Assembly: GCA_947475525.1 (NCBI GenBank)
Contig: CANJMI010000001.1
Coordinates: 186,001-250,000 of the forward strand
Reading direction: 5' to 3'
From: Polyangiaceae bacterium
GTDB taxonomy: Bacteria; Myxococcota_A; Polyangia; Polyangiales; Polyangiaceae
Length of the DNA stretch: 64,000 bases
Within the stretch, counting starts at the first letter, position 1, and each line of letters begins with the position of its first letter. The translations under genes were made by a program, and so were the position numbers. The notes under the pieces are model-generated. The model ran no database searches, was not told the origin of the DNA, and was given only the letters and a program-made list of their open reading frames with translations. Shown here piece by piece: positions 36,719-58,382 of this stretch.

Positions 36719-36768
36719 GTTCGCTCCGACCGAGCGTTTTCGTTTGTGCGACGCCGTAGCGACCGAGT

Positions 36769-37662: not shown

Positions 37663-37754
37663 CTAGATACGGTATCATACGGCACCAGAACTCCACAGCG
37701 CAAACCAACCCATAATTCCGCTCTAAGGGACTGCCGCAAAAATAAATCGATCCC

Positions 37755-37778
37755 GTGACGCCGTTCGGCCTCGACTGA
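37755..37778 (+). pseudogene. Relic of the RCC1 gene 3' end
   Basis: These 24 nt encode VTPFGLD and a TGA stop, against VTPVGLD and TGA at the end of the RCC1 lipoprotein gene (35574-35597). Twenty-one of 24 bases agree. In both places an asnB copy in the opposite direction follows within 50 nt. It is therefore the other end of the duplicated block. Confidence 0.72.
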
Positions 37779-37822
37779 GCTCGGGTTCCCTTCTTGCTGC
37801 CGGGGCCGCAGCCTCGCGCGGG

Positions 37823-39664: not shown

Positions 39665-39683
39665 AGAAACGCTCCTTCCTCGA

Positions 39684-40685
39684 TCAGATGGTCAACAGCC
39701 GCTTCTCGCGCGCCGCCAGATCGAGGTCGTTGTCGACCATCTCCCGCACGAGCTCGAGAAAGGACGTTTTGGGCTTCCAGCCAAGGGTCTCGTTTGCCTT
39801 CGTCGGATCGGCGAGCAAGAGATCAACCTCGGATGGGCGGAAGTATTTCGGATCGATCTCGACGTGCTTCGTCGCGTCGAGGCCCGCCATCTCGAAGGCG
39901 AGGTTCAGGAACTCGCTCACCGGATGCGTCTCGCCGGTCCCGATGACGTAATCGTCGCTCGTCGGCTGCTGCAGCATCAACCACATCGCTTCCACGTAGT
40001 CGCGCGCGTGACCCCAGTCGCGCTTCGCGTCGAGGTTGCCGAGGTAGAGCTTGTCTTGCAGTCCGTGTTTGATGCGCCCAACCGCGCGCGTGATTTTGCG
40101 CGTAACGAAGGTCTCTCCGCGGCGCGGGCTCTCGTGGTTGAAGAGGATCCCGTTGCACACGAACATCCCGTAGGCCTCGCGGTAATTCTGCCCGATGTAG
40201 AAGGCGTACGCTTTGGCGCAGGCGTAAGGGCTCCGCGGGTGGAACGGGGTCGTTTCGCGCTGCGGCGTCTCGACCACCTTGCCGTAGAGTTCGCTCGAGC
40301 TCGCCTGATACACCTTCGCGGGCAGTCCGCTGCGGCGCACGGCTTCGAGCACGCGCACCGTGCCGAGACCGGTGACTTCGGCGGTGTATTCTGGCGTATC
40401 GAAGCTCACGCGGACGTGGCTCTGCGCGCCGAGGTTGTAGACTTCGTCGGGCCGCGCTTCAGCGATGATGCTCTGGAGACCGGAGGCATCGCTGAGATCG
40501 CCGTGGTGAAGAACGAGGCGTCGCGAAGACTCGTGGGGGTCGGCGTAGAGGTGGTCGATGCGACCGGTGTTGAAGCTGCTCGAGCGACGAATGACGCCGT
40601 GAACTTCGTAGCCTTTCTCGAGGAGAAGCTCCGCTAGGTATGAGCCGTCTTGGCCCGTGATCCCTGTGATCAACGCTCGCTTCAT
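39684..40685 (-). CDS. gmd: GDP-mannose 4,6-dehydratase
   Basis: This 333-aa protein starts at ATG 40685 (MKRALITG). It is an extended short-chain dehydrogenase: NAD(P)-binding [14 protein letters not shown] at the N-terminus, [15 protein letters not shown], the catalytic SSSELYG and YACAKAYA (Tyr-x3-Lys), and C-terminal [17 protein letters not shown]. It converts GDP-mannose to GDP-4-keto-6-deoxymannose, the precursor of GDP-fucose, GDP-rhamnose or GDP-perosamine. No epimerase/reductase partner is seen nearby. It is followed 19 nt later by asnB on the same strand, linking deoxysugar and amidated sugar chemistry in a surface glycan. Confidence 0.97.
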
Positions 40686-40704
40686 GACAACGCAGCGTGC
40701 ACGC

Positions 40705-43700: not shown

Positions 43701-44031
43701 GCGCGCCGAAGGTGACGTCGTGGTTCGTCCAGACGACGTCGCCGGTGGCGGGTCGCTTGGCTGCAAGCCCGTCTCCGCTCGCCAGAATGAGCTCGAGTGC
43801 GCCGTCGCCATCGACGTCGGCGGCGAGCAGTCCCGTGGGCCCAAGCGTTCCGCCGAGAAAGTATTTCCAATACGGGGTTGGCGTCTCGATGGCGGCGATC
43901 GTGTTCGTGACGCCGGTGCGTCGCGCGTCGTGCCGTGCCGAGGGCCAGTCTCCCGCCGCTCGCGCCGTGAGAGACCCTACCGCGGCAGCCCCGAGGAGCC
44001 CGAACCCGATGTGCCTCGTCCGATGGTGCAT
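40705..44031 (-). CDS. Large secreted VCBS/FG-GAP repeat protein with MYXO-CTERM-like tail
   Basis: This 1108-aa protein has an N-terminal signal peptide (about 1-26). At least nine calcium-loop units of the FG-GAP/VCBS type follow ([55 protein letters not shown]), so a beta-propeller is likely. A fibronectin-III-like domain lies at about 920-1050 ([21 protein letters not shown]). The end has CVYACSAAG, then a hydrophobic segment ([14 protein letters not shown]) and RRRR, the layout of the MYXO-CTERM sorting tail. It should be anchored to or released from the outer surface. It lies directly upstream of gmd (19 nt). Confidence 0.86.
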
Positions 44032-44040
44032 GCCGCAGTC

Positions 44041-44047
44041 CCTCCTT
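44041..44047 (-). promoter_or_regulatory. Shine-Dalgarno AAGGAGG of the VCBS protein gene
   Basis: AAGGAGG on the minus strand lies 9 nt before ATG 44031. It settles the start that gives a signal peptide against a longer reading running into the upstream polymerase gene. Confidence 0.8.
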
Positions 44048-44066
44048 CTTGCGCGGTTCGTGACGG

Positions 44067-46760
44067 TCAGTGCAGGATGCCTTCCATGACTTGTTTGCGA
44101 AGCTCGCGGATGCGCGCCTCGATCGCCGGATCGTGTCCGCCGCGACGTGCAAGCGATCGCTCCAGCGTGCGGACGGCTTGTCCGGCCATGCCCGCGCGGC
44201 CCGAGGCGTCGGCGAGCTTGCCGAGGCGCTCGTCGGTCTCCTCGTGTTGGATGGCGCGAGCGAAAAGCGTCGCCGCCGAGGCCCACTCTCCACGGCCAGC
44301 GTGCAGCCCACCGATCCAGTCCGCAGCCTCGGCGCAAGGTTGCTCGTCCATGCAGACGGCGGCGAGGAGCGCCCGCTCCGCGAGTGTCAACGGCTCGGGA
44401 ACTTTGACGTTCGCCGCGAGTGCCGTGCGGGTTCGAAGGCATGGGATGCGGTCCTCGACGGCGTCGCAAAGTAAGAGGAGCGCGTTCGTGGCCTCTCGCG
44501 TCTTGCCCTGTGCGGCGAGCCAGCGGGCACGCAGTTGTCCGGCGAGCGAGGAGCTTGGAGACTGGCGCTCGAGTGACTGCGCGAAGCTTTCGATTTCACG
44601 TCCGCACGAGTCGGCGTCGTCGATGCATCCGGTGCCCGCGGCGCGCGCTTCGATGCGTTCGGAGGCGAGCCGGAAGAGCGGACCCGTCAACGTTTTGTCA
44701 GCCTCAAGAGCACGGCGGTCGCAACGGCGAGCGAGAGGTGCGTCTTTCACATACGCTCCGAGCGCGGCCCAGGTCCTGCCCGCAAGTTCACCCGACGGCA
44801 CCATGTGGCTCAGCGTGTCTTCGTCGATCGCCCACGAGCTTGCGACCTGCGCGGCGCTCTCGATGAGCGAGTTGTCATTCGCGATGGCGAGGCGCAGCTC
44901 CATCATCGCTTGCAGCTTCGCGTGGTGTTGCTCGAGGACTTGCCCTAACAACAAGTGCGCGCGACCGTTGACGAGCGACCGCTCGAGCGATCGTTCGAGC
45001 CACGGGATGGGGCTCTGGTCTTGCTCGCGAAACGCTAGCGCCGCCCCGAGCAGCGGGAAGTACGGCTCGGCCGGGTGGCGTGCGATCGCGGCGCGAAGCC
45101 GCGCCCGCAACTCAAGCCGCTGTGCCGCTGTGCGCGGAGATTTCGTCGTCTCGAGTTCCTCATGCAGGGCACGTCGTTCCGCGTCGAGAAGCGTCATGCC
45201 GCTTCGAGCAACGCCTCCAGTCATCAACGCTCCCGCCACCATGACGAGGCCCGCAATTCGAATCGCGGCCGGTGCGCTCCGGACCGGGCCGACCAAGGTT
45301 GCTTGCTGCTGCGCCGCTGCGCCCCACAAGGCTCCGAGCACCATCGCGAGGGCGAAACACAACGCGGGGATCTCCAAGCCGAGGTCCGCGGCGTTCTGCA
45401 CCAACAGGACCGCGGCTCCACACCACGCGCCGGCTGCTGCGCTCGAACGCAGCACCCCGAGTCGCCCCGGGCGGAAGCACCAGGCAAGGGCAAAGAGCGC
45501 AGAAACCCCGACCGGGATCCCCCACTCGACGAGCCACTGGGCGGGGAAGTTTTCGACGTGGGTGAAGACGATTCCGCCGTCTTTTTGCTGGTAAGCCGGA
45601 AATACCGACTCGAACGCGCCGCGCCCAACGCCGAACCACGGGAAGTCCCCGACTACCGGCCGCACCCATCGCACCATCTCCAACTTGCCGACGCTCTCGT
45701 CGAACAGTTCGAGCCAGGTCTTCGCGTGACTTCCGAGCAGTGCCAGCACCGTGCCGAAGGCGACCGTGCCGGCGAGCATCCACCGCGATTGCCGGGTGCT
45801 CGCGCGCGATTGGGCCCTGCGTCCACGACCACGCTCGAGCATGACGACGAGCATCGCGACGCCGACGAGCAACATCAGCACGCCACCGCGCGATGCCGCG
45901 CCGACGACCACACCGACGAGCACGGCGACCCCGAGCGCATTCAGCCAACGCGGCAAGAGTGGCCGCTCCTCGAACAGGAGCCCGAGACCCGAGAGCGCCC
46001 CCAGGTTCAGGTAGCCCGCGAGGTTGTTCGGGTTCAGCAGTGGTCCGACGTGCCACGGCTCGGCCTTGAAGCCCGGCGTGTAGAGGCCGTAGACTTTGTC
46101 CAGACCGAGAAGCCCGTGGGAGACCGCGATGATGGCGGCGAGGCAAGCGGAGCCGAACACGCTCACGATCGCCCACCGACTGCCGAGGCGCGTCGACATC
46201 GTCGCCGAACCGATGAACACGGCGCCGTAGCTGAACCACCGCAGCGCTTCGATCCACGTAGCGCCCGGATCGAGCGAGAGGGATGCGAACGCTGGCGCGG
46301 GTTGTCCGAGTGGCGAGAACGCCCGCGACCACGTCTCCGCGGCGACGGGGCTGAGAGCACGCAGCGCGCCGATCGGCAGCGGCACGAGCTGCAGAAGGCA
46401 CACCGCGGACAGTCCCCAGAGCACGTAGACTGGCGCGGACAAGGGGAGCCGCCGATCCGTTGCGCGGAGCGCCAAGGCCCCTGCGGCGAGCGCGGTCGAC
46501 AGCGCGCCGAGGAGGAGCATCACCGGCGGGTGAACGCCCCCAATCGCCATGAGGGATACGACCAGAATTACGATCGCGAGCGCCTGCGTTACCTGCTCGA
46601 GGGGAAAGTCCTCGAGCTGCGCGTTGAGCCGCGACGCCCACGAGGTGCGCCGTCGTTTGCGACCGACGCGTCCCGTCAAGGGCTCCGGCTCCCGGCTGTC
46701 TGCGCTCGAAGTCGCGGCGCCCCTGGCGGACGAATCGTCATCGGGCGAAGGGGGGGTCAT
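44067..46760 (-). CDS. O-antigen ligase/polymerase (Wzy/WaaL-like) with helical-repeat C-terminus
   Basis: This 897-aa protein has a basic cytosolic N-terminus (about 1-55) and 11-12 hydrophobic helices (about 58-540). The periplasmic loop contains HVGPLLNPNNLAGYLNLGALSGLGL and GDFPWFGVGRGAFESVFPAYQQKDGGIVFTHVENFPAQWLVEWG, the hallmark of the O-antigen ligase family (PF04932). Residues about 560-895 form a soluble TPR-like helical domain with several cysteines. Such proteins join lipid-linked repeat units or attach glycan to its acceptor at the outer face of the inner membrane. It heads the minus-strand block that includes the VCBS protein, gmd and asnB. Confidence 0.88.
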   Translation of the reverse strand: MTPPSPDDDSSARGAATSSADSREPEPLTGRVGRKRRRTSWASRLNAQLEDFPLEQVTQALAIVILVVSLMAIGGVHPPVMLLLGALSTALAAGALALRATDRRLPLSAPVYVLWGLSAVCLLQLVPLPIGALRALSPVAAETWSRAFSPLGQPAPAFASLSLDPGATWIEALRWFSYGAVFIGSATMSTRLGSRWAIVSVFGSACLAAIIAVSHGLLGLDKVYGLYTPGFKAEPWHVGPLLNPNNLAGYLNLGALSGLGLLFEERPLLPRWLNALGVAVLVGVVVGAASRGGVLMLLVGVAMLVVMLERGRGRRAQSRASTRQSRWMLAGTVAFGTVLALLGSHAKTWLELFDESVGKLEMVRWVRPVVGDFPWFGVGRGAFESVFPAYQQKDGGIVFTHVENFPAQWLVEWGIPVGVSALFALAWCFRPGRLGVLRSSAAAGAWCGAAVLLVQNAADLGLEIPALCFALAMVLGALWGAAAQQQATLVGPVRSAPAAIRIAGLVMVAGALMTGGVARSGMTLLDAERRALHEELETTKSPRTAAQRLELRARLRAAIARHPAEPYFPLLGAALAFREQDQSPIPWLERSLERSLVNGRAHLLLGQVLEQHHAKLQAMMELRLAIANDNSLIESAAQVASSWAIDEDTLSHMVPSGELAGRTWAALGAYVKDAPLARRCDRRALEADKTLTGPLFRLASERIEARAAGTGCIDDADSCGREIESFAQSLERQSPSSSLAGQLRARWLAAQGKTREATNALLLLCDAVEDRIPCLRTRTALAANVKVPEPLTLAERALLAAVCMDEQPCAEAADWIGGLHAGRGEWASAATLFARAIQHEETDERLGKLADASGRAGMAGQAVRTLERSLARRGGHDPAIEARIRELRKQVMEGILH

Positions 46761-46804
46761 CGTCTCGTGCTCTGTTGCCCGCCCCCGGTCCGAAGTTCAG
46801 CCGC

Positions 46805-47521
46805 TCAGCGGGGGTCGCCTCGGTGTTTCAAGAGGTCTTGCTGCTGCTTCATCAAGTAGCCTACCACGGCGTCCTCCATGGCGAGGAAGCCGCGCGATTG
46901 CGGATTGTACGCGCAGCCATACCGCACGGCCTTCGAAGGCATCAGCACGCGGTGACGAATCGTGATGAGCACCTTGAGGGGCGTCGCACACGTCGGCAGC
47001 TCGAACTCAATGTAGACGTTGTCGGCGCTGACCTTCGTGTCCTGCTCGGGCGTTACGAGGAGCGCAATGCCGGTCGCCGAGATGTCGTGCAGGTCAGCCA
47101 CGACAGGCTTCGCTTCGGCACGCGCGGCGGGGTCGGCTGGAAAAATGTTTACGCTGATCGGCTTTTGGGCCGGCGCGCGGTAGGACGTGCGCCGGTTGAA
47201 CAGCCGTAGAAGATCGGTCGCGTCCTGCCCTTCCTTCAGTTTGAACTCAAACACGTAGCGGCGGCAGCCACCGATTTCGGTGCGGCTGATGACCATCGCG
47301 CTGAGCCGCACGGGCGACTTCAACGTAGGCGTTTTAAACTCGAGCCCAACGACCGCGCTGAGCGGAAGGTGCGGCATCTCGGGTGGATGGAAGTCGATCG
47401 TCGTTTGCCGCAGCTCGAACGCCACCACCTCGCCACCAACCGGTCCACTTCGAAGCGCGAGAGTCACGCTGAGGACGTTCAGATCGGTGGCGAGCTTCCC
47501 CCCGGATGCTTCACTTGCCAT
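46805..47521 (-). CDS. PilZ-domain protein (YcgR-like two-domain)
   Basis: This 238-aa protein starts at ATG 47521; upstream in-frame Mets give an unlikely tail. The N-terminal ~110 residues are a beta-rich domain (AFELRQTTIDFHPPEMP, LSAVVGLEFKTP) like the flagellar-brake/PilZN module. Residues about 120-235 form the PilZ barrel with RRTSYR (RxxxR) and DISATGIAL (DxSxxG), both intact. It should bind cyclic-di-GMP. Its gene directly precedes the O-antigen polymerase gene, so it may tie glycan export or assembly to cyclic-di-GMP level. This link is inferred from position. Confidence 0.85.
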   Translation of the reverse strand: MASEASGGKLATDLNVLSVTLALRSGPVGGEVVAFELRQTTIDFHPPEMPHLPLSAVVGLEFKTPTLKSPVRLSAMVISRTEIGGCRRYVFEFKLKEGQDATDLLRLFNRRTSYRAPAQKPISVNIFPADPAARAEAKPVVADLHDISATGIALLVTPEQDTKVSADNVYIEFELPTCATPLKVLITIRHRVLMPSKAVRYGCAYNPQSRGFLAMEDAVVGYLMKQQQDLLKHRGDPR

Positions 47522-47708
47522 TCGCGGACCCTTACAAGCGATCTTGATTTGACGCAAGATGTTTAGCGCGCAACGTGCAACCGGCTGCGCACAAAAACCG
47601 GGCGGGACCTCCTCGAGGTCCGAGATGGCGCGTGCAGCGCAGCTTTGGCCTAACATGTACCGATGGGCTCGATGCACGCGGCCTAAGGTGTAAACTCGGC
47701 GTTATCGA

Positions 47709-48914
47709 GTGCACGTTCTCGCGGTCAACCAGTTTTACGCGCCGGACCACTCGGCTACCTCGCAGCTCCTGACCGAGCTCTGCGACGCTCTTGTAGAGGG
47801 AGGCGACAGCGTCACCGTCGTCGCGAGCTCGGGTACCTACCTTGGGGGAGCTCGGCTCGCGGCCCGCGAGACGCTGAACGGTGTCGAAGTTCGACGCGTT
47901 GGAGCAACGAGCCTTGGTAAGCGCACGGTGGCGCATCGTCTGGCTGACTACGGTTCGTTCGGCGCGCTGGCACTCGCGGAGCTCGCGGCCGTCCCCCGTC
48001 CCGACGTGATCCTCACCTTGACGACGCCGCCGATGCTGGCGGTGGTAGCGGCCGTCGTTGCGCGGGCGCGCGGCGTCCCACTCGTGACGTGGATTCAAGA
48101 TGTCTACCCTGAGGTCGCCGTTGCGTTTGGGGTCCTTGGTGCCAACCATCCCGCGACGCGAGCACTCGAGCTAGCGGCCCGCGCCAGCCACCGTGCGGCG
48201 CGCCTCGGTGTCGTGCTCTCCGAAGGCATGGCCTCGCGCGTCGTCGCGCAGGGTCAGCGCGCCGACCGTTTGCGGGTGATCCCAAACTGGTCGGATAGCG
48301 CGCTCATCGCCCCTGTCGCGCCGCAATGGAACACGTTTCGCCGTGAGCACGGGCTCGAGGATCGCTTCGTTGCGATGTACAGCGGCAACCTCGGCGCCGG
48401 CCACGAGCTGCTCCCCTTCGTCGAAGCGGCGCGGCGGCTCGAGGCCTCGAGGCCCGACCTCGTCTTCGCGTTCGTAGGTGACGGCGTCCGGCGAGCGTCG
48501 ACCCAAGCTTCCGCTCGCGGACTGCGAAATGTCCGCTTTTTCCCGTATCAACCGCGCGAACGCCTCGCCGAGAGCCTGTCGGCCGCCGACGTTCACCTCG
48601 CATCGTTGCAGGAGGGCCTCGATGGACTCCTCGTCCCTAGCAAGCTCTATGGCGTGCTCGCCGCGGGGAGGCCTCTTCTCTACGCTGGTCCAGCCGCGTG
48701 CGAACTCTCGCGGGTGATCGAGCGCGACCGCCTCGGTTGGCGCGTGCCTCCGGGCGATGTCACGGCCATCGTGGAAGCGCTCACCACGGCCACGACGGAT
48801 GCCGCCGCGACGAGGGCCATGGGCGAGCGCGCGCGCGCCGTCTTTCTCGCTCAGTACGACCGGTCGCTCGCCGTTGCTCGCTGGCGGGCGGTGCTGGCCG
48901 AAGCCGTTTCGTAA
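47709..48914 (+). CDS. GT4-family glycosyltransferase (WbuB-like)
   Basis: This 401-aa protein starts at GTG 47709 (VHVLAVNQFYAPD). It has two Rossmann-like halves: the N-terminal acceptor half with DHSATSQLLTELCDAL, and the C-terminal donor half with YSGNLGAGHEL and SLQEGLDGLLVPSKLYGVLAAGRPLLY. The latter is the EGxxxxxxPSK(L/F)YG signature of WbuB/WcaI-type transferases adding an amino sugar to undecaprenyl-linked glycan. It is cytosolic or membrane associated. It is divergent from the PilZ/polymerase block across 187 nt and followed by a WecA-type gene on the same strand. Confidence 0.9.
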   Translation: MHVLAVNQFYAPDHSATSQLLTELCDALVEGGDSVTVVASSGTYLGGARLAARETLNGVEVRRVGATSLGKRTVAHRLADYGSFGALALAELAAVPRPDVILTLTTPPMLAVVAAVVARARGVPLVTWIQDVYPEVAVAFGVLGANHPATRALELAARASHRAARLGVVLSEGMASRVVAQGQRADRLRVIPNWSDSALIAPVAPQWNTFRREHGLEDRFVAMYSGNLGAGHELLPFVEAARRLEASRPDLVFAFVGDGVRRASTQASARGLRNVRFFPYQPRERLAESLSAADVHLASLQEGLDGLLVPSKLYGVLAAGRPLLYAGPAACELSRVIERDRLGWRVPPGDVTAIVEALTTATTDAAATRAMGERARAVFLAQYDRSLAVARWRAVLAEAVS

Positions 48915-49034: not shown

Positions 49035-50600
49035 ATGCGCTCTTACCTCGCCGCATTCCTCGTCTCCGCCCTCGCATCGGGGCTTCTCACCCCGCTTGTG
49101 AGGCGGTGGGCGCTTCGGCTTCAGGTCGTTTCGGCAACGGGCGGTCGCCACATGCACGCCCGCAAGATCCCGCGGCTCGGCGGCGTCGCCATCGCGATCG
49201 CCTTGTTCTTGCCGATCGTGTCGTTGTTCTTCTTCAACGGCGTGATTGCACAGTACATGAAGCAGAACGTCGTGCGAGTCGTAGGCTTGTGCGGCGGAGG
49301 AGCCGCGATAGGTCTCCTCGGCGCGCTCGATGATGCGCGTGGCGTCCGTGCGCTCCACAAGTTGTACGGTCAGTTCGGCGTCGCGGTGCTCGCGTGGCTG
49401 TGTGGGTTCCGCATCGATGAGGTGATGCTGCCCATCGTTGGGTCGCTGCCGATGGGCATCTTCAGCCTGCCCGTGACCGTCTTGTGGATCGTCGGCATCA
49501 CCAACGCCGTGAACTTGATAGACGGCCTCGATGGCCTCGCGGCAGGCGTCGTGTTCTTCGCTGGCGTCACCAATTTCGTGGTCGCGTACACGCTCGGCCG
49601 AGAGTTTACGGCCCTCGTCATGGCGTCGATGCTCGGCGCCGTTCTCGCGTTCCTTTTCTACAATTTCAACCCGGCGCGCATCTTCATGGGCGACTCGGGA
49701 AGTTACCTGCTGGGCTATGTCCTCGCGACGACGGCGCTTGTCGGACCAACTGGCAAGGCGACGACCGCGGTGTCGCTGCTCGTGCCCGTGGTCGCGCTCG
49801 GCGTGCCGATTTTTGACACACTGTTTGCGATCGTGCGCCGCGCAGTCGAGCGACGCCCGCTCTTCTCCCCCGATCGCGGACACATCCACCATCGGCTGAT
49901 CGACCTCGGGTTCACGCACCGCCGTGCCGTGTTGATTCTCTACGGCGTCAGCGTCGTCCTTACGGTCGCCTCGATCGCGATCTACCTCGGCCGCGCCTGG
50001 CAGATCGGCGTAGCCCTCCTCGCGGCCACGGTGGTGATGCTCGGTCTCGTCCGGTTCGTCGGCTACTTTTCGTATTCGATGTTCGCGCGCCGGCAGCGGT
50101 CGCGCATGCGCAGTCGCGACACCGAGTTGCTCCGTCGCCTGATGCCCGGGCTCGCCGCGCGCTTTGGTGCGACGACGAGCGAGCGCGCCCTCCTCGATGA
50201 GTGGCTCGCGTTCGCTGCCGATGCGGAGCTCGCGGCGTTCGAGCTCCGGCGGCTTGATCGCGTGAACGTTGAGGAGCCCGTGCTCGAATGGGCCGACCGC
50301 CGCTCCGATGCCCGCCGCGTTGTCGCGACCATGGTCTACCCAATCGGTACCGATGCGCTCGCCCGCGCCGAGCTGGAGATTTCGGCGGCGAATGAGTTCG
50401 AGGACGACCAGGTTCCGCCTCAAACCGAGATCTTGCTGCAGCTCGCGACGGACATGCTAGCGGAGAACCTCCTGCGACTCGGCAGTGCGCTCGCGCCGCG
50501 TGTCTCTCAGGTGCCGGCCTCGATGCGTGGTCGCGAAAAGGCAGACGCGGCCCCGCCGAGTTCGTCTCGGCCTGCGGTTCCTTCAGGCGTCGAGTCGTGA
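49035..50600 (+). CDS. WecA/TagO-type polyprenyl-phosphate sugar-1-phosphate transferase
   Basis: This 521-aa protein has about 11 membrane helices (residues 3-345). It carries the family motifs: GGRHMHARKIPRLGG, LGALDDARG (Asp99/Asp100), NAVNLIDGLDGLAAG, FMGDSGS and HIHHRLIDLG near residue 282. It moves GlcNAc-1-P (or similar) to undecaprenyl phosphate, starting glycan assembly. Unusually, about 165 extra soluble residues follow the last helix (RRLMPGLAARFG onward); WecA/TagO proteins usually end soon after it. Its stop overlaps the GTG start of the nucleotidyltransferase (GTGA), coupling glycan initiation to the lasso cluster genes. Confidence 0.92.
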   Translation: MRSYLAAFLVSALASGLLTPLVRRWALRLQVVSATGGRHMHARKIPRLGGVAIAIALFLPIVSLFFFNGVIAQYMKQNVVRVVGLCGGGAAIGLLGALDDARGVRALHKLYGQFGVAVLAWLCGFRIDEVMLPIVGSLPMGIFSLPVTVLWIVGITNAVNLIDGLDGLAAGVVFFAGVTNFVVAYTLGREFTALVMASMLGAVLAFLFYNFNPARIFMGDSGSYLLGYVLATTALVGPTGKATTAVSLLVPVVALGVPIFDTLFAIVRRAVERRPLFSPDRGHIHHRLIDLGFTHRRAVLILYGVSVVLTVASIAIYLGRAWQIGVALLAATVVMLGLVRFVGYFSYSMFARRQRSRMRSRDTELLRRLMPGLAARFGATTSERALLDEWLAFAADAELAAFELRRLDRVNVEEPVLEWADRRSDARRVVATMVYPIGTDALARAELEISAANEFEDDQVPPQTEILLQLATDMLAENLLRLGSALAPRVSQVPASMRGREKADAAPPSSSRPAVPSGVES

Positions 50601-51433
50601 CGGAGGACGCCGAAGCGCGCCTCGCCTACGTGGTGCGGCGGCGCGTGCTCGACGACGTCGGCGGGATCTTTGCTCGAGCGGGACTTCAAGCCTTGCTCGT
50701 GAAGGGCGCGGGCTTAGCGGAGACCGTCTACCGCGAGCCATGGCGCCGAACGATGAGCGACATCGATCTGGTCGTGCGTCCAACGGCGCTCTCCGCCGCC
50801 CTCGGCGCGTTGGTTGGGGCGGGGGTCGAAGTCCCGCCGATCCCAGCCGATCGTCGGCGCTCGTACGCGCTGTTCGAAGAGCGCGCGGCCATCGTGTCCG
50901 TAGGACCGGTGCGCACGCTTGTCGAGGTGCACACAGGTCTCGACAAGGTGGTAGCGCATCCGATCGATTGGCGCGGCGTCTGGGCGCGAGCCGCGTGCGT
51001 CGAAGGGCTTTCGCCTTCGCTCCTCGTGCCGTGCCGGGAAGATCACGCGCTCTTGGTCGTCTTGCATCTGGCGCTCAGTGACTTCGCCCATCCCTACGCA
51101 TGGGGCGACCTCGCGGCACTGTTTCGCGAAGGAATTGACCATGAAATACTGGCTTTGCGTGCCGAGGCATGGGGCCTCACGTTGCCGTTGGCTTTGGGCA
51201 TCGAGCGTCTCGCGGTAGCGTTCCCGGAACTCGGGTTGGCTGAGCTTCGCGCGAGGCTGGTTGTTTCCCCCGTGCGGCTCGTGGTCGCTCGCCGCGCGTT
51301 TCGTAACCACGAGGTCCGCTCACGAGGGACCACCTGGTTGGCGAAGCAGACCGTCCTGCGTGAGGACTTCGCGCGCTGGTCCATCGGCATCATGCGGTTC
51401 GCTGTGCTGCGGTGCGCGGACCGCCTCGTGTGA
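50597..51433 (+). CDS. Nucleotidyltransferase family protein (NTP_transf_5 type), lasso-cluster associated
   Basis: This 278-aa protein starts at GTG 50597. Residues 32-60 (ALLVKGAGLAETVYREPWRRTMSDIDLVV) show the Lys36, Arg and Asp55-x-Asp57 pattern of the nucleotidyltransferase fold found in PF14907 proteins. A further HTGLD and EDHALLVVLHL follow. Such proteins are recurring partners of lasso-peptide kinases. In the pseudomycoidin cluster, a homologue acts on the kinase-modified peptide. Here it is coupled with the wecA-like gene upstream and lies 12 nt before the B1 gene. Its place in the pathway is inferred from that company. Confidence 0.8.
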   Translation: MTEDAEARLAYVVRRRVLDDVGGIFARAGLQALLVKGAGLAETVYREPWRRTMSDIDLVVRPTALSAALGALVGAGVEVPPIPADRRRSYALFEERAAIVSVGPVRTLVEVHTGLDKVVAHPIDWRGVWARAACVEGLSPSLLVPCREDHALLVVLHLALSDFAHPYAWGDLAALFREGIDHEILALRAEAWGLTLPLALGIERLAVAFPELGLAELRARLVVSPVRLVVARRAFRNHEVRSRGTTWLAKQTVLREDFARWSIGIMRFAVLRCADRLV

Positions 51434-51445
51434 TAGAAGTCCCGC

Positions 51446-51730
51446 ATGGGAAGTTCGGGCGAGCGAACGTTCAAGGCCACGAGTCGGGTGCTCTCGCGGG
51501 TGCTCGATGGCGAGGCCGTGCTCCTCGATCTCGGTGGCGGTCAGTACTATGGGCTCGACGAGGTCGGCACCGTGGTGTGGACGGCGCTCGAGGCAGGGGC
51601 CAGTGTGGCGGAGCTCGTCGTGCGCGTCGTCGTGGCCTACCAGGTCGCGGAGGAGACGGCCCGCGGCGACATCGAGCGGCTGCTCGCTGAGCTTGCAGAC
51701 AAGGGGCTCGTTACGTCGTCGCCGCCGTGA
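51446..51730 (+). CDS. PqqD-like RiPP recognition protein (lasso B1)
   Basis: This 94-aa protein has the winged-helix/beta pattern of the RiPP recognition element: TFKATSRVLSRVLDGEAVLLDLGGGQYYGLDEVGTVVWTALEAG, followed by helices to the end. The family binds leader peptides such as Y-x2-P-x-L-x3-G motifs and presents them to the B2 protease and C synthetase. It is on the plus strand behind the nucleotidyltransferase (12 nt gap), apart from the B2-C-A-K operon. Its last 20 nt overlap the end of the K gene tail to tail. The split of B1 and B2 into separate proteins is usual outside McjB-type fusions. Confidence 0.9.
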   Translation: MGSSGERTFKATSRVLSRVLDGEAVLLDLGGGQYYGLDEVGTVVWTALEAGASVAELVVRVVVAYQVAEETARGDIERLLAELADKGLVTSSPP

Positions 51731-52628
51731 TGATTCGCTCGACGAGCGACTCGAGCTCCCCAAGGTCTGGTCGGTAACGGAGCCTCCGCACAGCCACGCG
51801 CGAGATCACGTCCGACAACAGCTTGAACTCGGCGGCGAGGGCCGTCGGGTCGTCGGGGGCGAGGCGATGCACCTGCTTTTGGAGCGCAAGGAAGGCTTCG
51901 CGTCCGTGGAGGCGCTCGAGGCGGGGAGCCCTTTCGTCATGGCGCTCGAGGACAATCACGGTTCGTAGCGGCACGGGGCCGGAGACGAGAGGGGCGGTCA
52001 TTCGAAGCTTCGGTACGCGCGGTGTTGCGCGCACGAGCGAGGGAGCGTCGACGGCGAATTGCATGGCGGCGTCGGGCCAGAGCCGCAAGGATGGGTAGCC
52101 CGGTAGAGCGACGATGGCGTCCCCGTCTACTTGAAGCGAGAGGCTGTCATCGGACACGATGCGTCCGCGTGCAGCCACGGCGGCACACAACGTGGATTTC
52201 CCGGCGCCGGAGTCGCCCGTGAATGCGATGGCGCCGAGGTCTTCGCGCCATGCCGCGCTCGCATGCAAGCTCGGCAGGCCGAACAGGTGCAGCGCGCGTG
52301 GAACAATCTGATCGACCAGCGCCTGCTCGAGCGTGAGCGGCGAGACGCCCTCCTCGAGCGTGTAGGAAATCACGCCGGCGGCGATAAGAAACGTCCCGAC
52401 GTCCGTTAGCGCAATGGCGTATCCATCGGCGCCGCGCGAGACGGAAAGGAAGACCACATCGGGCGAATCGCGCCGCGTGATCGTGAAGACGGGCTCACGC
52501 GGCGCATCCGGTCGTGAGGCGAGTCGCACGAGCGTCACGTCGAGCGCATCCCGCGCGTCGGCGGGCATCAACGTCTCAAGAGGCGTCGCGCTTGTGAGTC
52601 GAACCGCTCCGACGTGATAGCGATGCAC
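51711..52628 (-). CDS. HPr kinase-like lasso-peptide kinase (K)
   Basis: This 305-aa protein starts at GTG 52628, 14 nt after the precursor stop. Residues 138-146 are the P-loop GDSGAGKST, followed by SDDS (160-162) with the catalytic Asp pair and LPGYPSLRLWP; this is the HprK/P C-terminal kinase fold without the N-terminal DRTGG-like regulator. In paeninodin-type clusters, such kinases phosphorylate a Ser at the precursor C-terminus. Here the precursor ends in Ala and its core has no Ser, only Thr5, so the substrate is an open question (see findings). Overlap with B1 is tail to tail. Confidence 0.88.
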   Translation of the reverse strand: MHRYHVGAVRLTSATPLETLMPADARDALDVTLVRLASRPDAPREPVFTITRRDSPDVVFLSVSRGADGYAIALTDVGTFLIAAGVISYTLEEGVSPLTLEQALVDQIVPRALHLFGLPSLHASAAWREDLGAIAFTGDSGAGKSTLCAAVAARGRIVSDDSLSLQVDGDAIVALPGYPSLRLWPDAAMQFAVDAPSLVRATPRVPKLRMTAPLVSGPVPLRTVIVLERHDERAPRLERLHGREAFLALQKQVHRLAPDDPTALAAEFKLLSDVISRVAVRRLRYRPDLGELESLVERIITAATT

Positions 52629-52642
52629 GAAGCCGTACGCGC

Positions 52643-52828
52643 TTACGCCGGCTGAAGCCCCGCTCCGCCGTCGCCGACCGTCCCTGCGGCGGCGAGCGTC
52701 AGGGCGTGAACGGAACCGAGCAACGTGAGCGTCGGCCGTGCGTAGGGGCGCTTCGAGACCGCTTCGGTCGAGATGTTCGAGTCGGCGGGGCGCGTGGAGA
52801 CGAGGTCAGATTTGGATTCGTTCGACAT
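52643..52828 (-). CDS. Lasso peptide precursor (A), predicted core AAAGTVGDGGAGLQPA
   Basis: This 61-aa product starts at ATG 52828, 7 nt downstream of the C gene; GAGG of the C stop region acts as the ribosome site. Residues 1-45 are the leader. Tyr29, Pro32, Leu34, Gly38 and Thr44 match the lasso leader signature Y-x2-P-x-L-x3-G-x5-T exactly. With Thr44 at -2, cleavage after Leu45 gives a 16-residue core starting Ala46. The only acidic core residue is Asp53, core position 8, predicting an Ala1-Asp8 eight-residue ring and a GGAGLQPA tail. An in-frame upstream extension lies inside the C gene and is not part of the precursor. Confidence 0.88.
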   Translation of the reverse strand: MSNESKSDLVSTRPADSNISTEAVSKRPYARPTLTLLGSVHALTLAAAGTVGDGGAGLQPA

Positions 52829-52835
52829 GGGATCC

Positions 52836-54722
52836 TCAAGGGCGAAGCTGCCGCAGCCACAGCTCCATCGCGATGGCTGCGAGTTTACGATAAAATAGCG
52901 GGAGATCGCTAGTGTCGGGTGCATCGAGCCTGAGCGTCGGGTGCACGACGCCAAGCTCGATCAAGCGCTCGGGGTGAGCGATCGCGGCAAATTGCTCGCT
53001 ATGCAGCTCGACGAGGCACGCTCGGACAAAGCTCGAGTACTCGGCTGAACTCTGGCGTCGATGAATCTCCGCCGGCAGGACGTCGCGCATCGCGCGGCGC
53101 AAGACGGGCTTCGGTTTGCGGAGGGGCGGGGCGTAGCGTTGTTCGCTCGGCAAGCTGAGTAGCAGGCGAACCAGCTCCGCATCGAGGAACGGATGTTCGA
53201 GCGTGACGCCGCGCCGCCGCGCGAAGTGAGCGAGCCTGCCGGTGCAGAACTGCTGGCCCGAGCCTTGAACCCAACGGACCAGTGTTGCTGTGCGCCGGTC
53301 GCCGGTCTGCGTGCGCTCCCACTCGACCTCGCGCTCAAGCCGCTTGAGAGCGACGGCCTCGCTCCAGCGTTCAGAGAGGATCGGATCGCGCGGAGGCGTG
53401 CGCCACGCGTGAACGGCCGAGCGCAAGCGCCACGGGATCGCTTGCCTTAGCGTGAGGTCGTAGCCGCGGCGTAGTCCCTGCGTGGAGAAAAATGGACGGA
53501 AGGCGAGCCGGGCGACAGCGCGAAAGTCGCCTGCCTTCACGCGCTCGACGAAATCGAACGGGGTTCGCGTGAGGCACATGTCGCCGCCTTCTCCCGTGAG
53601 AACGGTATCGACGCCGCGCTCGGCCGCGGCCGCGAAGTGCGCATCGAAAGCGAACGCGCTCGGATAGTAGAGAGGCGCGCCCGGCAAAAGCGCGAGTGAC
53701 GGCGCGCTCCATGCGGAGTCGGCGAGGGCGTCGCAATCGGCGGCCCGCAAGCGCCACTGCCGCACGACGGCGCTGCTGTTCGCGGTCTCGTCGCACGCAA
53801 GCTCACCGTAGCGACTGTGGAGCGCGAGCACGGGCTGGGTTGCGAGGTTTGAGAGTCGCCGCTCTCGCTCCGCCAAGCATGCGATGGACGACGAGTCGAG
53901 CCCGCCCGACAACGTGACGCCCACCCCGCGCGCCCTTCGGATCCGGCGCTGCACAGCGAGCGTCAGCGCGTTCGCGACGCGGGCGGCGTAGTCTTCGTCT
54001 CTCAAGCCCGAGAGCTGCCGCACAGGTTCGAGCGCGGCGTGTTCTCGCGTGCGCGCGCCTCGGTCATCGAGGACAAGCGTGTGCCCGGGCATGAGGCTGA
54101 CGACCTCGCGTAAGAGCGTTGGGCCGTTGTCGGAGTAGTCGTTCACGAGGAACTGTGCGACCGCCTCGAGGTTCGGCTCCGCTGTGAGCGACGCGTCCGC
54201 GAAGAGCGCTTGCGCCTCGGAGGCGAAGTGCAGCGTCGTGCCGCGGACGAGGTAGTAAAGATTACGCGTGCCCAAAAGATCGCGCGCGAGCAGCATTTTA
54301 CCTTGCGCAGGGTCGTAGAGGGCGAACGCGTAGTCACCCGTCAGATGCCCGGCGCAGTCGTCCCCCCAGCGCAGGTAGGCCGAGCGAATCGCCGCTTCGT
54401 CGGGGCTCTCGTCGCTCACGACGACGCCTTCGCGCCACGCGGAGTCGATCGCGTCATCGTCGTCGAGCCGCGCGTCTGCGATGACGAGGATTCGGCTCGC
54501 GTTGTCCCGAGAGCGGAGCGCCTGTCGCCGGCCCTCATGGTCTGGTCGAGCATTGGCGTGAAGGCCCCGCGCGAGGCTGGCTCTCCCGCTCGTGACGAAG
54601 TGCACGTGAGACCAGCGCGTGCCCAGCATGCGCTCGAGCATCGCGCGTACAAGGCGCTCGCACTCCGGTCCCTGCCGTGCGTCGCTGCCCCCGAGCGAAA
54701 CCCGTCCGGCCAGAGCGGTCAT
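52836..54722 (-). CDS. Lasso macrolactam synthetase (C), Asn-synthase-like
   Basis: This 628-aa protein starts at ATG 54722 as an ATGA overlap with B2. It has AsnB layout: N-terminal glutaminase-like half (about 1-220) and C-terminal ATP-dependent half with TLSGGLDSSSIACLAE near residue 268 and TGEGGDMCL near 376. The glutaminase nucleophile is absent: the chain begins MTALAG, where true AsnB has MCGIAG. This is typical of lasso cyclases, which use the precursor's own amine. It should adenylate Asp8 and let the Ala1 amine attack, threading the tail. It is directly followed by the precursor gene. Confidence 0.93.
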   Translation of the reverse strand: MTALAGRVSLGGSDARQGPECERLVRAMLERMLGTRWSHVHFVTSGRASLARGLHANARPDHEGRRQALRSRDNASRILVIADARLDDDDAIDSAWREGVVVSDESPDEAAIRSAYLRWGDDCAGHLTGDYAFALYDPAQGKMLLARDLLGTRNLYYLVRGTTLHFASEAQALFADASLTAEPNLEAVAQFLVNDYSDNGPTLLREVVSLMPGHTLVLDDRGARTREHAALEPVRQLSGLRDEDYAARVANALTLAVQRRIRRARGVGVTLSGGLDSSSIACLAERERRLSNLATQPVLALHSRYGELACDETANSSAVVRQWRLRAADCDALADSAWSAPSLALLPGAPLYYPSAFAFDAHFAAAAERGVDTVLTGEGGDMCLTRTPFDFVERVKAGDFRAVARLAFRPFFSTQGLRRGYDLTLRQAIPWRLRSAVHAWRTPPRDPILSERWSEAVALKRLEREVEWERTQTGDRRTATLVRWVQGSGQQFCTGRLAHFARRRGVTLEHPFLDAELVRLLLSLPSEQRYAPPLRKPKPVLRRAMRDVLPAEIHRRQSSAEYSSFVRACLVELHSEQFAAIAHPERLIELGVVHPTLRLDAPDTSDLPLFYRKLAAIAMELWLRQLRP

Positions 54723-55162
54723 CCTGTCATCCGCCTGAAAATGGCTTCGTAACCCTGGTGTTCCCCCGGTATCGGGGGCTCTACCCACGCGTGCGCCTCG
54801 ACCCGCCGCCTCTCGGAGTGACGTACGCCAACGACGAGGGTCGCCTGCGCGCCGTCGCGTCTGTGAAGGGCGAATTGTACGAGGGCGCGGACCAGGCACC
54901 TGCCTGGCAGCCATGGCTGCACGCGAAATGCACGCGCGACCGCGCGCTCGGCGAGCCCCGCCTCGATCGGGTGTGAGTTCGAGCCGAGCGGCGTCATGCG
55001 TTCCAAGGCGTCGAGTGTTGGAGCGAGGCCGAAGATAGCGAGCGATGCTTCGACCCAAGGCGCGAGCGCCGCCGCCCGCGCGGCAAAGCGGAGCTCCACC
55101 GGGCTCGCATCCGCAAGCGCTCGCTGGAGCTGCTGGAACCGCTGGAGCCGAGGTGTCGTCAT
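54719..55162 (-). CDS. Lasso leader peptidase (B2), transglutaminase-like
   Basis: This 147-aa protein is the B2 type: helical N-terminus, then the transglutaminase-like Cys protease core with Cys89 in WLPGRCLVRALVQFALHRRDG, strand ATLVVGVR and His124 in EAHAWVEP. These two catalytic residues are plain. An Asp for the third position is not evident; Glu134 (PGEHQGYE) is a candidate. It should cut the leader after Leu45 of the precursor with help from B1. It is the first gene of the B2-C-A-K operon and is divergent from the exporter. Confidence 0.92.
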   Translation of the reverse strand: MTTPRLQRFQQLQRALADASPVELRFAARAAALAPWVEASLAIFGLAPTLDALERMTPLGSNSHPIEAGLAERAVARAFRVQPWLPGRCLVRALVQFALHRRDGAQATLVVGVRHSERRRVEAHAWVEPPIPGEHQGYEAIFRRMTG

Positions 55163-55190
55163 GCGCTGCCCGTCGTGGATGGTAGTCCTT

Positions 55191-55250
55191 CGTCACGGGT
55201 TGTGGCCACCCCGACCCGCGCGCGTCACGTTCGCAGCCACAGGCGTCACG
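55191..55250. promoter_or_regulatory. Three CGTCACG repeats in the divergent B2/D gap
   Basis: CGTCACG occurs at 55191-55197, 55223-55229 and 55244-55250; the last two extend to GCGTCACG and are 21 bp apart, two DNA turns. They sit in the 129-nt gap between divergent operon starts, so they may be binding sites for a shared regulator. Confidence 0.4.
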
Positions 55251-55291
55251 ACGGCGAGACTCCTTCGCTTCGAGCTCGGCTACCATGGTCG

Positions 55292-56917
55292 ATGAACCCC
55301 GTGGATCCGTTGCCCGCCGTACGTCGACATTCAGCCACTCGTGTGATTTTCGCTCTTGGCGCGCGCGGCTGGGTTTCGGTCGGACTCGAATTCGTTGCGC
55401 GTGCGGCCATTCCCGCGTCGCTCATCGCGTCGACACACGGCGCACTCCGCGAAGCTTGGATCCTCGCCCTCGCGACCCAGGCATTGGTGATCCTCCGAAG
55501 CTTTTCACTCGGTCGCGCACTCGAGAGGGAGCTTGTGCGGTGTTGGGCGCAGCTCGTCGATGCCGGAGGTCGGCACTCCATCGGGTTCTTGCGCGCACGC
55601 GAGAGCGAGATGAACGCGAGTCTGCTTGTCTTTGCCGCTCAGCGTACCGCTCAGGTCAGGGCGAACGTCGCGCCGCGCCTCCTTGCGGACGGGTTCGGGC
55701 TCGTCGCCGTTGCGCTCGCCGCGGTGGGTCTCCTAGGTCCGCTCTGGTGCGTGGCTGGAGTGGCGGTCGCATTCGTTCTCGCGCCGGCGGTGGTCTTCAC
55801 GGCCTCGCGTGTTCGTCGCGCGGAGCAGCGGGGCCACGAAGAGCTCGCGACCTTCGTCGAGGATTGCGGTCTGCTGCTCGATGGGGCGATTGAGCTTAGG
55901 GCCCATGGGCTCTCGGCGTGGGCACAAGGACAAGCGCTCGCTCATGCCACGCTCGTCGCCCGGGCGCGTCGCTCGTCGACCGCATGGCGTTCGCTCCTCG
56001 GTCTCTTCCCGGTGGCGGCGCTGCTCCTCGTCGCATCGATCCCGACGCTGCGCGAGCGGCTACAGGAGGGAGTCCCCGCCGCGACGCTCGTCGTCCTCGG
56101 AGCGACGGCGGTCGCATTCGCGCTCGGCCTCGTTGCCTCCTTCGAAGAGGTGCTCGCTTCGACCCCGCATCGCACGATCTTCGAGCGTTTTCTCGATGCT
56201 CCCGTGCCTTCGGGCATGCAGTTCTCGCGTGCCGTGCGCGCACCGGGTTGGCTAAGAAACGAGGTTGTCGCGTTCGACGCGGTCTCGGTACGCCACGATG
56301 AAAATCACGAGAGCACCCCTCACGCGTTCGCGTACGATTGGGATCCCGCGCGCGGCCTCGCCATCACGGGAGCCAACGGTGCCGGCAAAAGCTCGCTCGT
56401 CAACGCGCTCTTCGGACTCCTGCCGCTGGCTTCGGGTCAGATCCGCGTCGGCGATGCACCCTGGTCGGAGGACCGCGCGATCGAGCTCCGTGCGCACGTG
56501 GCCTACGTTCCGCAACGTCCTTTCCTCGCGCCTTCGCGTTCGGTCGCGTGGCATTTGCGCCTCTTTTCAGAGGACGCGAGCGACGCTGCGATGGTGGCCG
56601 CTCTCGTCGCGGTGGGGCTCTGGCCCGTCCTCTTGGCACGTGCGCCGAACGGCCCACTCGGGGTGTGCGTCGGGCAATTGTCCGGCGGGGAGCTTGCGCG
56701 CATGCATCTCGCGCGCGTGTGCCTGCCGCGGTCCGGGCGATCGCCCGACCTCATCGTCATCGACGAACCCGAGGCCGGCCTCGATGCGGCGGGCCGCGTT
56801 CTTATCCGTGAGCTGCTCGCACGTATCGCGGCCACGACGCCGGTGCTCGTGATCGCCCACGATGACGCCATTGTTCCGACCTCGTTCGCCCGGGCGTCGT
56901 GTGTCCGAGGAGCTTGA
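55292..56917 (+). CDS. ABC transporter, lasso peptide exporter/immunity (D)
   Basis: This 541-aa half-transporter starts at ATG 55292. N-terminal residues about 15-330 hold five to six membrane helices. The C-terminal ATPase has Walker A GANGAGKSS near 365, Q-loop AYVPQRPF, signature LSGGELAR near 470 and Walker B LIVIDEPEAGLD near 488. Fused membrane/ATPase D proteins export lasso peptides and give self-protection. It is divergent from the B2-C-A-K operon, with which it shares the promoter gap. No peptidase C39 domain is present, in keeping with leader removal by B2. Confidence 0.9.
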   Translation: MNPVDPLPAVRRHSATRVIFALGARGWVSVGLEFVARAAIPASLIASTHGALREAWILALATQALVILRSFSLGRALERELVRCWAQLVDAGGRHSIGFLRARESEMNASLLVFAAQRTAQVRANVAPRLLADGFGLVAVALAAVGLLGPLWCVAGVAVAFVLAPAVVFTASRVRRAEQRGHEELATFVEDCGLLLDGAIELRAHGLSAWAQGQALAHATLVARARRSSTAWRSLLGLFPVAALLLVASIPTLRERLQEGVPAATLVVLGATAVAFALGLVASFEEVLASTPHRTIFERFLDAPVPSGMQFSRAVRAPGWLRNEVVAFDAVSVRHDENHESTPHAFAYDWDPARGLAITGANGAGKSSLVNALFGLLPLASGQIRVGDAPWSEDRAIELRAHVAYVPQRPFLAPSRSVAWHLRLFSEDASDAAMVAALVAVGLWPVLLARAPNGPLGVCVGQLSGGELARMHLARVCLPRSGRSPDLIVIDEPEAGLDAAGRVLIRELLARIAATTPVLVIAHDDAIVPTSFARASCVRGA

Positions 56918-56993: not shown

Positions 56994-58382
56994 ATGCCTT
57001 TACTTTCCCATCGCCGCGCGCCACGTGGTGGCAACGCGGTTCGAGCTCCGCGCGCATTGTTCGCGGGCGCATTGTTCGCCGCTGCAATCGGCATCAACGC
57101 TGGCGTGGCGTGTAGCTCGGTCGAGACCGAGCCGAGTGGCGCGTCGTCCGTGGTGACCACGGGCAACGGCGGCTCCGCGGGTTCGACCGTGGTCACGTCG
57201 ACCGGCGGCGGAATCGGCGGAAGTGGCAGCGGCGGCGCGGGCGGCGCGGGTGGCACATCATCAGCCGGTGGCGCGGGCGGAACGCCAATCACCTGCACCC
57301 CGGACTCGGGCGGCGACACGTGTCCCGGTGACTTGATTGCGCTGACGCTCGGAACCACGGCTTGTTACGAGGGCGATCTCGCCGCTGCGACGGCGGATTA
57401 CTCCGCCAAATATTGTTCCTCGGCGAACGACACGACTGGACCCGATCGCGTGTACCACCTCACGTTTAGCGAGGTCGGGACACTCAAGTTCGTCGTCAAG
57501 GCGATCGACGCCGATTTTAATCCTACGCTGCATGGACGAAGGCTCGCCGCGAGTGCCGCCGAGTGCGCGAACCCCAATCAGGAATTCTCCTGTTGGTCTT
57601 TCTTTCCGACCAAAGAGGGCTTCGCTATCGAGGTTGATCCCGCGCAGATCCCCGAGGCGTACCTCTTCGTCGATGGCGCGATTGGCGTAGGCGGAAAATA
57701 CCGCATCGACGTTTCGTACACGAAGCCCGCGTGTGGCGATGGTGTCGTCAATGCCTCCGTCGCCGAAGAGTGTGATGATGGCAACGCCGCGAGCGGCGAT
57801 GGCTGCGACAAAACGTGCAAGCTCGAGAAGGTCACCGTTTTCGACGCGTGCCCGGGTGAGCCATTTCCGCTCGCGCTCAATCAGACGCTCACGTTCAACA
57901 GCAACACCGCGCCTTACAAAGATGGCGACGGCATTCACTCCTACCACCCACTCCAGGTCGCTGGTTGCGGCACGACGGCTTACAAGTCGACCGCCCCCGA
58001 TCGCGTCTATCAGCTCAAGGCAAAGGCGAACGGTACGGTGACGGCAACCGTTGGGCTCGACCTCACGGGGACGATTCCCGTTTGCGACCAGGACCTGCTC
58101 GATCCTGGCTGCTGGGACCGCGTGCTTTACGCCGTCGAAGCGGTCGATCCCGCCACGTGTGGCGCTAGCTGCACCTGCGACACCGGAATGACCATCGTCG
58201 GCGATCCGCTGATGGGCGCGCAACTCGGCACCCAGCTCGCTTGCTCGAACAAGGGCCTGTACGACGTCGAGGACATCTCGTTCCCTGTTCAGAAGGATCG
58301 CACCTACTTCATCGTCGTCGACGGCAACTCGTATGCGCAGAAGAAATTCGGCCCATACAACCTGAAGGTCTCGCTGAAGTAA
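56994..58382 (+). CDS. DUF4215-repeat predicted lipoprotein
   Basis: This 462-aa protein has a signal peptide with an RR-rich n-region and lipobox GVAC (about residue 40), then a long Gly/Ser/Thr linker (GGSGSGGAGGAGG style, to about 100). Residues about 245-282 are a Myxococcus Cys-rich repeat (CGDGVVNASVAEECDDGN.. SGDGCDKTC), DUF4215. Two related beta-sandwich units flank it; each has DRVYHLTF / DRVYQLKA and a closing strand (YLFVDGAIGVGG, YFIVVDGNSY), like pre-peptidase C-terminal domains. It is lipid-anchored and surface exposed. It follows the exporter gene by 76 nt but has its own ribosome site. Confidence 0.85.
   Translation: MPLLSHRRAPRGGNAVRAPRALFAGALFAAAIGINAGVACSSVETEPSGASSVVTTGNGGSAGSTVVTSTGGGIGGSGSGGAGGAGGTSSAGGAGGTPITCTPDSGGDTCPGDLIALTLGTTACYEGDLAAATADYSAKYCSSANDTTGPDRVYHLTFSEVGTLKFVVKAIDADFNPTLHGRRLAASAAECANPNQEFSCWSFFPTKEGFAIEVDPAQIPEAYLFVDGAIGVGGKYRIDVSYTKPACGDGVVNASVAEECDDGNAASGDGCDKTCKLEKVTVFDACPGEPFPLALNQTLTFNSNTAPYKDGDGIHSYHPLQVAGCGTTAYKSTAPDRVYQLKAKANGTVTATVGLDLTGTIPVCDQDLLDPGCWDRVLYAVEAVDPATCGASCTCDTGMTIVGDPLMGAQLGTQLACSNKGLYDVEDISFPVQKDRTYFIVVDGNSYAQKKFGPYNLKVSLK

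Follow-up and report, generated by a model that had tools for sequence, protein, structure and literature searches.

Until the description of BsfA from Bradymonas sediminis, every reported phosphorylation of a lasso peptide fell on a C-terminal serine (PMC10368454). PadeK, the kinase of the paeninodin cluster, modifies such a C-terminal serine, and the tailoring of pseudomycoidin is likewise directed to that position, with PsmN apparently adding a hexose (PMC9266682). In B. sediminis, by contrast, the kinase BsfK, with help from BsfB1, phosphorylates the ring residue Ser3 of BsfA while the precursor is still intact (PMC10368454), and this is the one demonstrated case of ring phosphorylation found in the literature. 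A literature search found no paper characterising a lasso peptide from a myxobacterium (Polyangia). The subject of this work is a lasso-peptide cluster carried on a stretch of 64,000 nucleotides (nt), hereafter the window, at positions 186,001 to 250,000 of contig CANJMI010000001.1 (G000:C1:186001-250000 in our numbering) in the genome of an uncultured myxobacterium of the family Polyangiaceae (assembly GCA_947475525.1; 5.15 Mb, 59 contigs). The closest named relative found is the Polyangiaceae metagenome-assembled genome ZH-3nov15-113, with which the C protein of the cluster shares 61% identity.

Family models, gene order and the relatives of the precursor agree that this is, as far as sequence can tell, a complete lasso-peptide cluster, as an earlier sequence-only reading of the same DNA had proposed. 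It is rather probably a class-II-type system (no Cys) that bears a kinase, as does the bsf cluster of B. sediminis, and the product that we favour, with somewhat better than even confidence in the pathway as a whole, is a lasso peptide with an 8-residue ring phosphorylated at Thr5. The genes of the cluster are listed below, with lengths in amino acids (aa).

50597-51433, plus strand: N, PF14907 nucleotidyltransferase-like protein, 278 aa, GTG start (Pfam NTP_transf_5, 72.6 bits)
51446-51730, plus strand: B1, PqqD-like leader-binding protein (RRE), 94 aa (PF05402, 61.9 bits)
51711-52628, minus strand: K, HPr-kinase-like precursor kinase, 305 aa, GTG start (assigned by motif, fold and homology to BsfK)
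52643-52828, minus strand: A, precursor, 61 aa, leader 1-45 and core 46-61, AAAGTVGDGGAGLQPA (assigned by relatives and alignment)
52646-52693, minus strand: predicted core peptide, ring closed by an Ala1-Asp8 isopeptide bond, Thr5 as the predicted phosphosite, tail GGAGLQPA
52836-54722, minus strand: C, lasso cyclase, asparagine synthetase-like, no Cys2, 628 aa (PF00733, 106.8 bits)
54719-55162, minus strand: B2, leader peptidase, transglutaminase-like Cys protease, 147 aa (NF033537; PF13471)
55292-56917, plus strand: D, ATP-binding cassette (ABC) exporter, 541 aa (PF00005, 69.6 bits; adjoins B2-C-A-K in relatives)

The minus-strand run B2-C-A-K is compact: C lies 7 nt from A, A lies 14 nt from K, and the B2 stop codon TGA overlaps the C start codon ATG (ATGA). 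N and B1 are encoded on the plus strand and head towards K, whose 3′ end shares 20 nt with the end of B1; D diverges from B2. N is also found upstream of B1 in three related loci (L016, L018, and L025). The sequence-only reading had described B1, B2, C, D and the precursor as adjacent and tightly spaced: all five genes lie where it placed them, but B1 is on the strand opposite to A, B2 and C, and both K (between A and B1) and N (before B1) had been overlooked.

Precursor, core and cyclase

The precursor gene runs from an ATG at 52828 to a stop at 52643 and is preceded by GAGG about 6 nt 5′ of the start codon. The leader register read earlier from the letters alone (Y29, P32, L34, G38, and T44) is exact in the precursor and conserved in its relatives: an alignment of 15 precursors shows no variation at Y29, P32, L37, G38, or T44 and almost none at L34, V40, L43, or L45. 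Homologues that keep this register were found in 14 of 59 related genomes (E 7e-14 to 6e-3), and a profile search returned a matching precursor in 53 of 108 family genomes, the weakest of these matches possibly being due to chance; no related precursor was found on a plasmid. The gene adjoins C in nearly every relative examined that has sequence there. Against the lasso leader model NF033521 the precursor scores 15.6 bits, below the cut-off of 19, and automatic annotation might therefore miss it; it is deemed real because of its relatives. Comparison with the sister species (L016) over 55 codons reveals 17, 14, and 29 nucleotide differences at codon positions 1, 2, and 3, respectively, which is the pattern expected of a translated gene. 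Elsewhere in the family, two loci (L017:15786-16126 and L064:1588-1820) carry tandem precursor pairs ahead of a single enzyme set, and the position of the ring hydroxyl is the same within each pair (5 in L017 and 3 in L064).

The 16-residue core is predicted to be AAAGTVGD-GGAGLQPA, with the dash marking the border between ring and tail. Its proposed start at Ala46, with Thr at -2 and Leu at -1, is borne out by the alignment, in which the variable core begins two residues past Thr in all precursors. Asp53 (core position 8) is indeed the sole acidic core residue and lies within the positions 7-9 typical of lasso ring closure, and position 1 holds Ala, one of the residues typical there (Gly, Ala, Ser or Cys). 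Of 43 relative cores encoded close to C and a kinase, 30 have their first acidic residue at position 8, seven at 9, three at 7, and one each at 3, 4, and 5, in agreement with an 8-residue ring closed on Asp8. Ala1, which had been called less common than Gly, is a minority choice in this family (Gly in 29/43, Ala in 10/43). Within the clade to which the window belongs, Asp/Glu8 is present in 13/13 cores, Ser/Thr5 in 12/13, and Gly4 in 11/13; position 1 is Gly or Ala, and the other ring positions are free to vary. Taken as sequence comparison, this supports a ring joining Ala1 to Asp8. No exact copy of the core was found in the other genomes searched, and the sister species (L016/L098) has a different 16-residue core with the same AAAGTV start.

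B1 matches the lasso PqqD models at 48-52 bits. The cyclase C begins MTALAG and so lacks the N-terminal Cys of glutaminases, and it contains the ATP-binding motif SGGLDSS; its score against the lasso cyclase model NF033535 is 206 bits, which is below that model's cut-off. A wide alignment of C proteins proved too diverse for scanning, and with a narrower one 40 loci were recovered, two of them from close relatives. The residues that the sequence-only reading had assigned in the precursor, in B2 and in the Cys-less C were all correct.

The kinase and its predicted site in the ring

K retains the His-Lys-Asp-Asp motif described for lasso kinases (H122, G138, G143-K144-S145, and D160-D161), and its AlphaFold model, with a predicted local distance difference test score (pLDDT) of 94, matches the PEPCK/HPr-kinase superfamily, including the HPr kinase 3tqf. 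It shares 30% identity with BsfK over 181 aa (profile match E 1.1e-18). An assignment to the HPr-rel-A system was rejected, K scoring 25.8 bits to TIGR04352 against a cut-off of 200. Locus L138 was recognised as the bsf cluster itself: the mass of its core, GTSGNEVDGSTPADRGNNPGD, is 2015.8416, equal to that of the published BsfA core (PMC10368454), and its T2, S3, S10, T11, C-terminal Asp and Ile(-2) match the description of BsfA.

Thr5 is the only hydroxyl residue in the window core. Phosphorylation of the paeninodin type, at the C terminus, was rejected: the core ends in LQPA, with Ala in place of a C-terminal Ser, and a C-terminal Ser or Thr is present in only 7/43 kinase-linked cores. The bsf-type position is likewise unavailable, position 3 of the window core being Ala. 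In a kinase tree of 45 rows, the Polyangiaceae kinases fall into two supported clades, and these co-segregate with the position of the ring hydroxyl. Ser/Thr5 is present in 11/12 cores of the window clade (12 rows, support 97/91) versus 3/24 known cores of the other clade (26 rows, support 100/99), in which Ser/Thr3 is commonest (13/24). The association of clade with position has Fisher p values, uncorrected for relatedness, of 6e-6 for Ser/Thr5 and 0.01 for Ser/Thr3, and none of 500 label shuffles clustered as tightly on the kinase tree. The comparison is one between kinase-linked clades only. A wider tree of 72 kinases retains the pattern; in it BsfK falls into a clade of its own on the Bradymonas side, where most of the known cores carry Ser/Thr3. 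The sole hydroxyl at Thr5, together with this clade pattern, leads to the prediction that K phosphorylates Thr5: K probably adds its phosphate within the peptide ring, and we infer ring Thr5 as the site. In the literature examined, no lasso peptide was found with a reported phosphate at ring position 5.

Several observations weigh against this assignment. In the wider tree, support for the window clade is lower (93/91), with Ser/Thr5 in 10 of the 11 rows kept. Furthermore, 13/42 kinase-linked cores have Ser/Thr at neither position 3 nor position 5. Finally, Ser/Thr5 could be retained not for the sake of the kinase but because the peptide needs it to fold or C needs it to recognise its substrate; since C and K co-evolve, the tree cannot separate these explanations.

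A plain, unphosphorylated lasso with the same 8-residue ring (1293.631 Da), in which the kinase either lacks activity or modifies the leader or some other substrate, is the strongest alternative, although we consider it unlikely. The evidence for the core register and the ring is good even with the kinase left aside, and the leader is rich in Ser and Thr; however, K has an intact motif, nearly all Polyangiaceae lasso clusters with enough sequence include a kinase, phosphates on the leader would be lost at cleavage, and the homologous BsfK acts on the core (PMC10368454). The two readings differ in the mass to look for. The predicted monoisotopic masses are 1311.642 for the linear core, 1293.631 for the lasso, and 1373.598 for the phospho-lasso, and if Thr5 is phosphorylated, the ion to be sought shifts from an [M+H]+ of 1294.639 to one of 1374.605. 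Since the cluster encodes both a kinase and a nucleotidyltransferase, a search for the core mass minus one water, as suggested with the sequence-only reading, may miss the real product, which would be 79.966 Da heavier and possibly further decorated. The two kinase clades, with Ser/Thr5 and Ser/Thr3 as their respective commonest choices, also constitute a natural pair for studying how such kinases choose their residue, and the precursors are small and synthesisable.

Three further points count against the phosphorylated lasso with the pathway proposed for it, and they concern the tail, B2 and N. The tail has no bulky plug, offering only Leu13, Gln14, and Pro15; with a tail so light, threading may be weak, and it is the least certain of the class-defining features of the predicted product. 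An improbable alternative, less so than the last rival below, is accordingly a branched-cyclic or dynamic product in which the Ala1-Asp8 ring is closed and the Gly-rich tail does not stay threaded: GGAGLQPA lacks an aromatic or Arg/Lys plug and the tails of close relatives are similarly light (GGGLQPTP, GNLGQQRS, and GRTTQP), but C is a full-length lasso-type cyclase, and a plug as small as Gln can suffice for an 8-residue ring, as in benenodin-like lassos. B2, for its part, passes the curated lasso model NF033537 (53.7 bits, cut-off 33), and its Cys89 and His124 are invariant across 20 homologues; nevertheless, it has no clearly aligned third catalytic acid, and the stretch after HAWVE is short. 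A damaged triad as a hallmark of the clade was considered and rejected, the region after HAWVE being variable in all relatives, and the structure model of B2 gave no confident match in the Protein Data Bank (PDB). That the cluster is decayed or silent and yields no product, as the lack of an obvious third catalytic residue in B2 might suggest, is very improbable given that all reading frames are intact, the family motifs are kept, the gene order is common to the genus and the precursor is conserved with the sister species with the codon-position differences given above. Lastly, N has a counterpart in bsfN of the Bradymonas cluster (L138), but the similarity of the two proteins is weak (E 6e-4 over 47 aa).

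The putative exporter-linked lipoprotein and flanking genes

The conserved neighbourhood extends beyond the biosynthetic genes at both ends, reaching two further genes.

56994-58382, plus strand: putative lipoprotein, 462 aa, DUF4215 / myxo_disulf_rpt (conserved 3′ of D)
49035-50600, plus strand: WecA/MraY-like glycosyl-1-phosphate transferase, cluster membership uncertain (PF00953, 134.7 bits)

The lipoprotein gene starts with Met at 56994 and encodes a probable lipoprotein signal ending in INAGVAC. A homologue lies downstream of D in 9/9 clade clusters with sequence there (the window, L017, L018, L019, L072, L077, L079, L086, and L097), usually with less than 60 nt between the two open reading frames (ORFs), and L072 has a second copy at its far flank. 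The window's genome has a single copy of the full-length homologue. With that genome set aside, the nine top-ranked matches in the 108 genomes of the family all come from clade genomes (G086 holds two), and weaker matches occur elsewhere. Next in rank is a match at L170 (G035:C1:10379500-10398500), which adjoins a PF14907 gene, with an ABC transporter and a weak match to the kinase in the vicinity; no lasso C or B1 was found at this locus, which is possibly a different peptide system with the same lipoprotein partner. A literature search returned no paper linking lasso peptides with DUF4215. Our guess is that the lipoprotein serves as a receptor, carrier or immunity protein, and its presence beside D in every checkable clade cluster provides a handle on the destination of the peptide. 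We tentatively propose, at rather less than even confidence, that these clusters form a distinct Polyangiaceae lineage in which the kinase targets ring position 5 and a dedicated lipoprotein partner is encoded after the exporter.

At the other end, the stop codon of the WecA/MraY-like gene overlaps the start of N by 4 nt, and a similar gene precedes N in L016, L018, and L025 (and, in partial form, in L079). It is possibly co-transcribed with N and B1, or else possibly the end of a polysaccharide locus. By ORF reading, an apparent polysaccharide-type locus occupies 35630-48914 of the window, beside the lasso cluster. It includes two asparagine-synthase-like ORFs at about 35630-39664 that look duplicated, the first without its N-terminal part, together with GDP-mannose-dehydratase-like (39684-40712), O-antigen-ligase-like (44067-46760), and glycosyltransferase-like (47709-48914) ORFs.

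Proposed pathway and comparison with known systems

In the proposed pathway, B1 would bind the YxxPxL...G leader, and K, aided by B1, would phosphorylate core Thr5 before the precursor is processed. B2 would then cleave after L45, recognising T44 at -2, whereupon C would adenylate Asp8 and join it to the amino group of Ala1, producing an 8-residue ring threaded by GGAGLQPA. N, a PF14907 protein, may subsequently attach a sugar or a nucleotide to the phosphate; by analogy with PsmN, it could add a hexose or a nucleotide. D would export the product, and the lipoprotein encoded after D would handle or receive it at the cell surface.

Each of the kinase-bearing systems compared here shares part of this arrangement. 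The paeninodin cluster (PadeA/B1/B2/C/D/K) has in common with the window an HPr-kinase-like tailoring enzyme and a split B1/B2. The paeninodin core also starts with Ala, but its ring is closed on position 9 rather than 8. The two further differ at the C terminus, which is a phosphorylated Ser in paeninodin (PMC9266682) versus Ala, with no Ser, in the window core. Pseudomycoidin (PsmA/K/N) shares the tailoring pair of kinase and nucleotidyltransferase.

Closer to home, the Ser/Thr3 clusters of Polyangiaceae (for example L061, L073, and L026) have the same enzymes, including the kinase, and the same leader motif. They differ in gene order, A-C-K-B1(-B2), in belonging to the other kinase clade, and in having the hydroxyl most commonly at position 3; no lipoprotein match was found in those of their loci examined.

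The nearest described system is bsf of B. sediminis FA350 (L138), with the same gene set of A, B1, B2, C, D, kinase, and nucleotidyltransferase (PMC10368454). It comes from the same phylum-level group, and its peptide likewise has an 8-residue ring closed on Asp8, Gly4, a ring hydroxyl, and no C-terminal Ser. The window differs from it in having Thr rather than Ile at -2, in starting its core with Ala, in placing the hydroxyl at position 5 rather than 3, in the order and strands of its genes, and in the lipoprotein gene that follows D. In sum, the cluster is one of many in Polyangiaceae and a variant of a known system, set apart by the predicted phosphorylation of ring Thr5 and by its exporter-linked lipoprotein.

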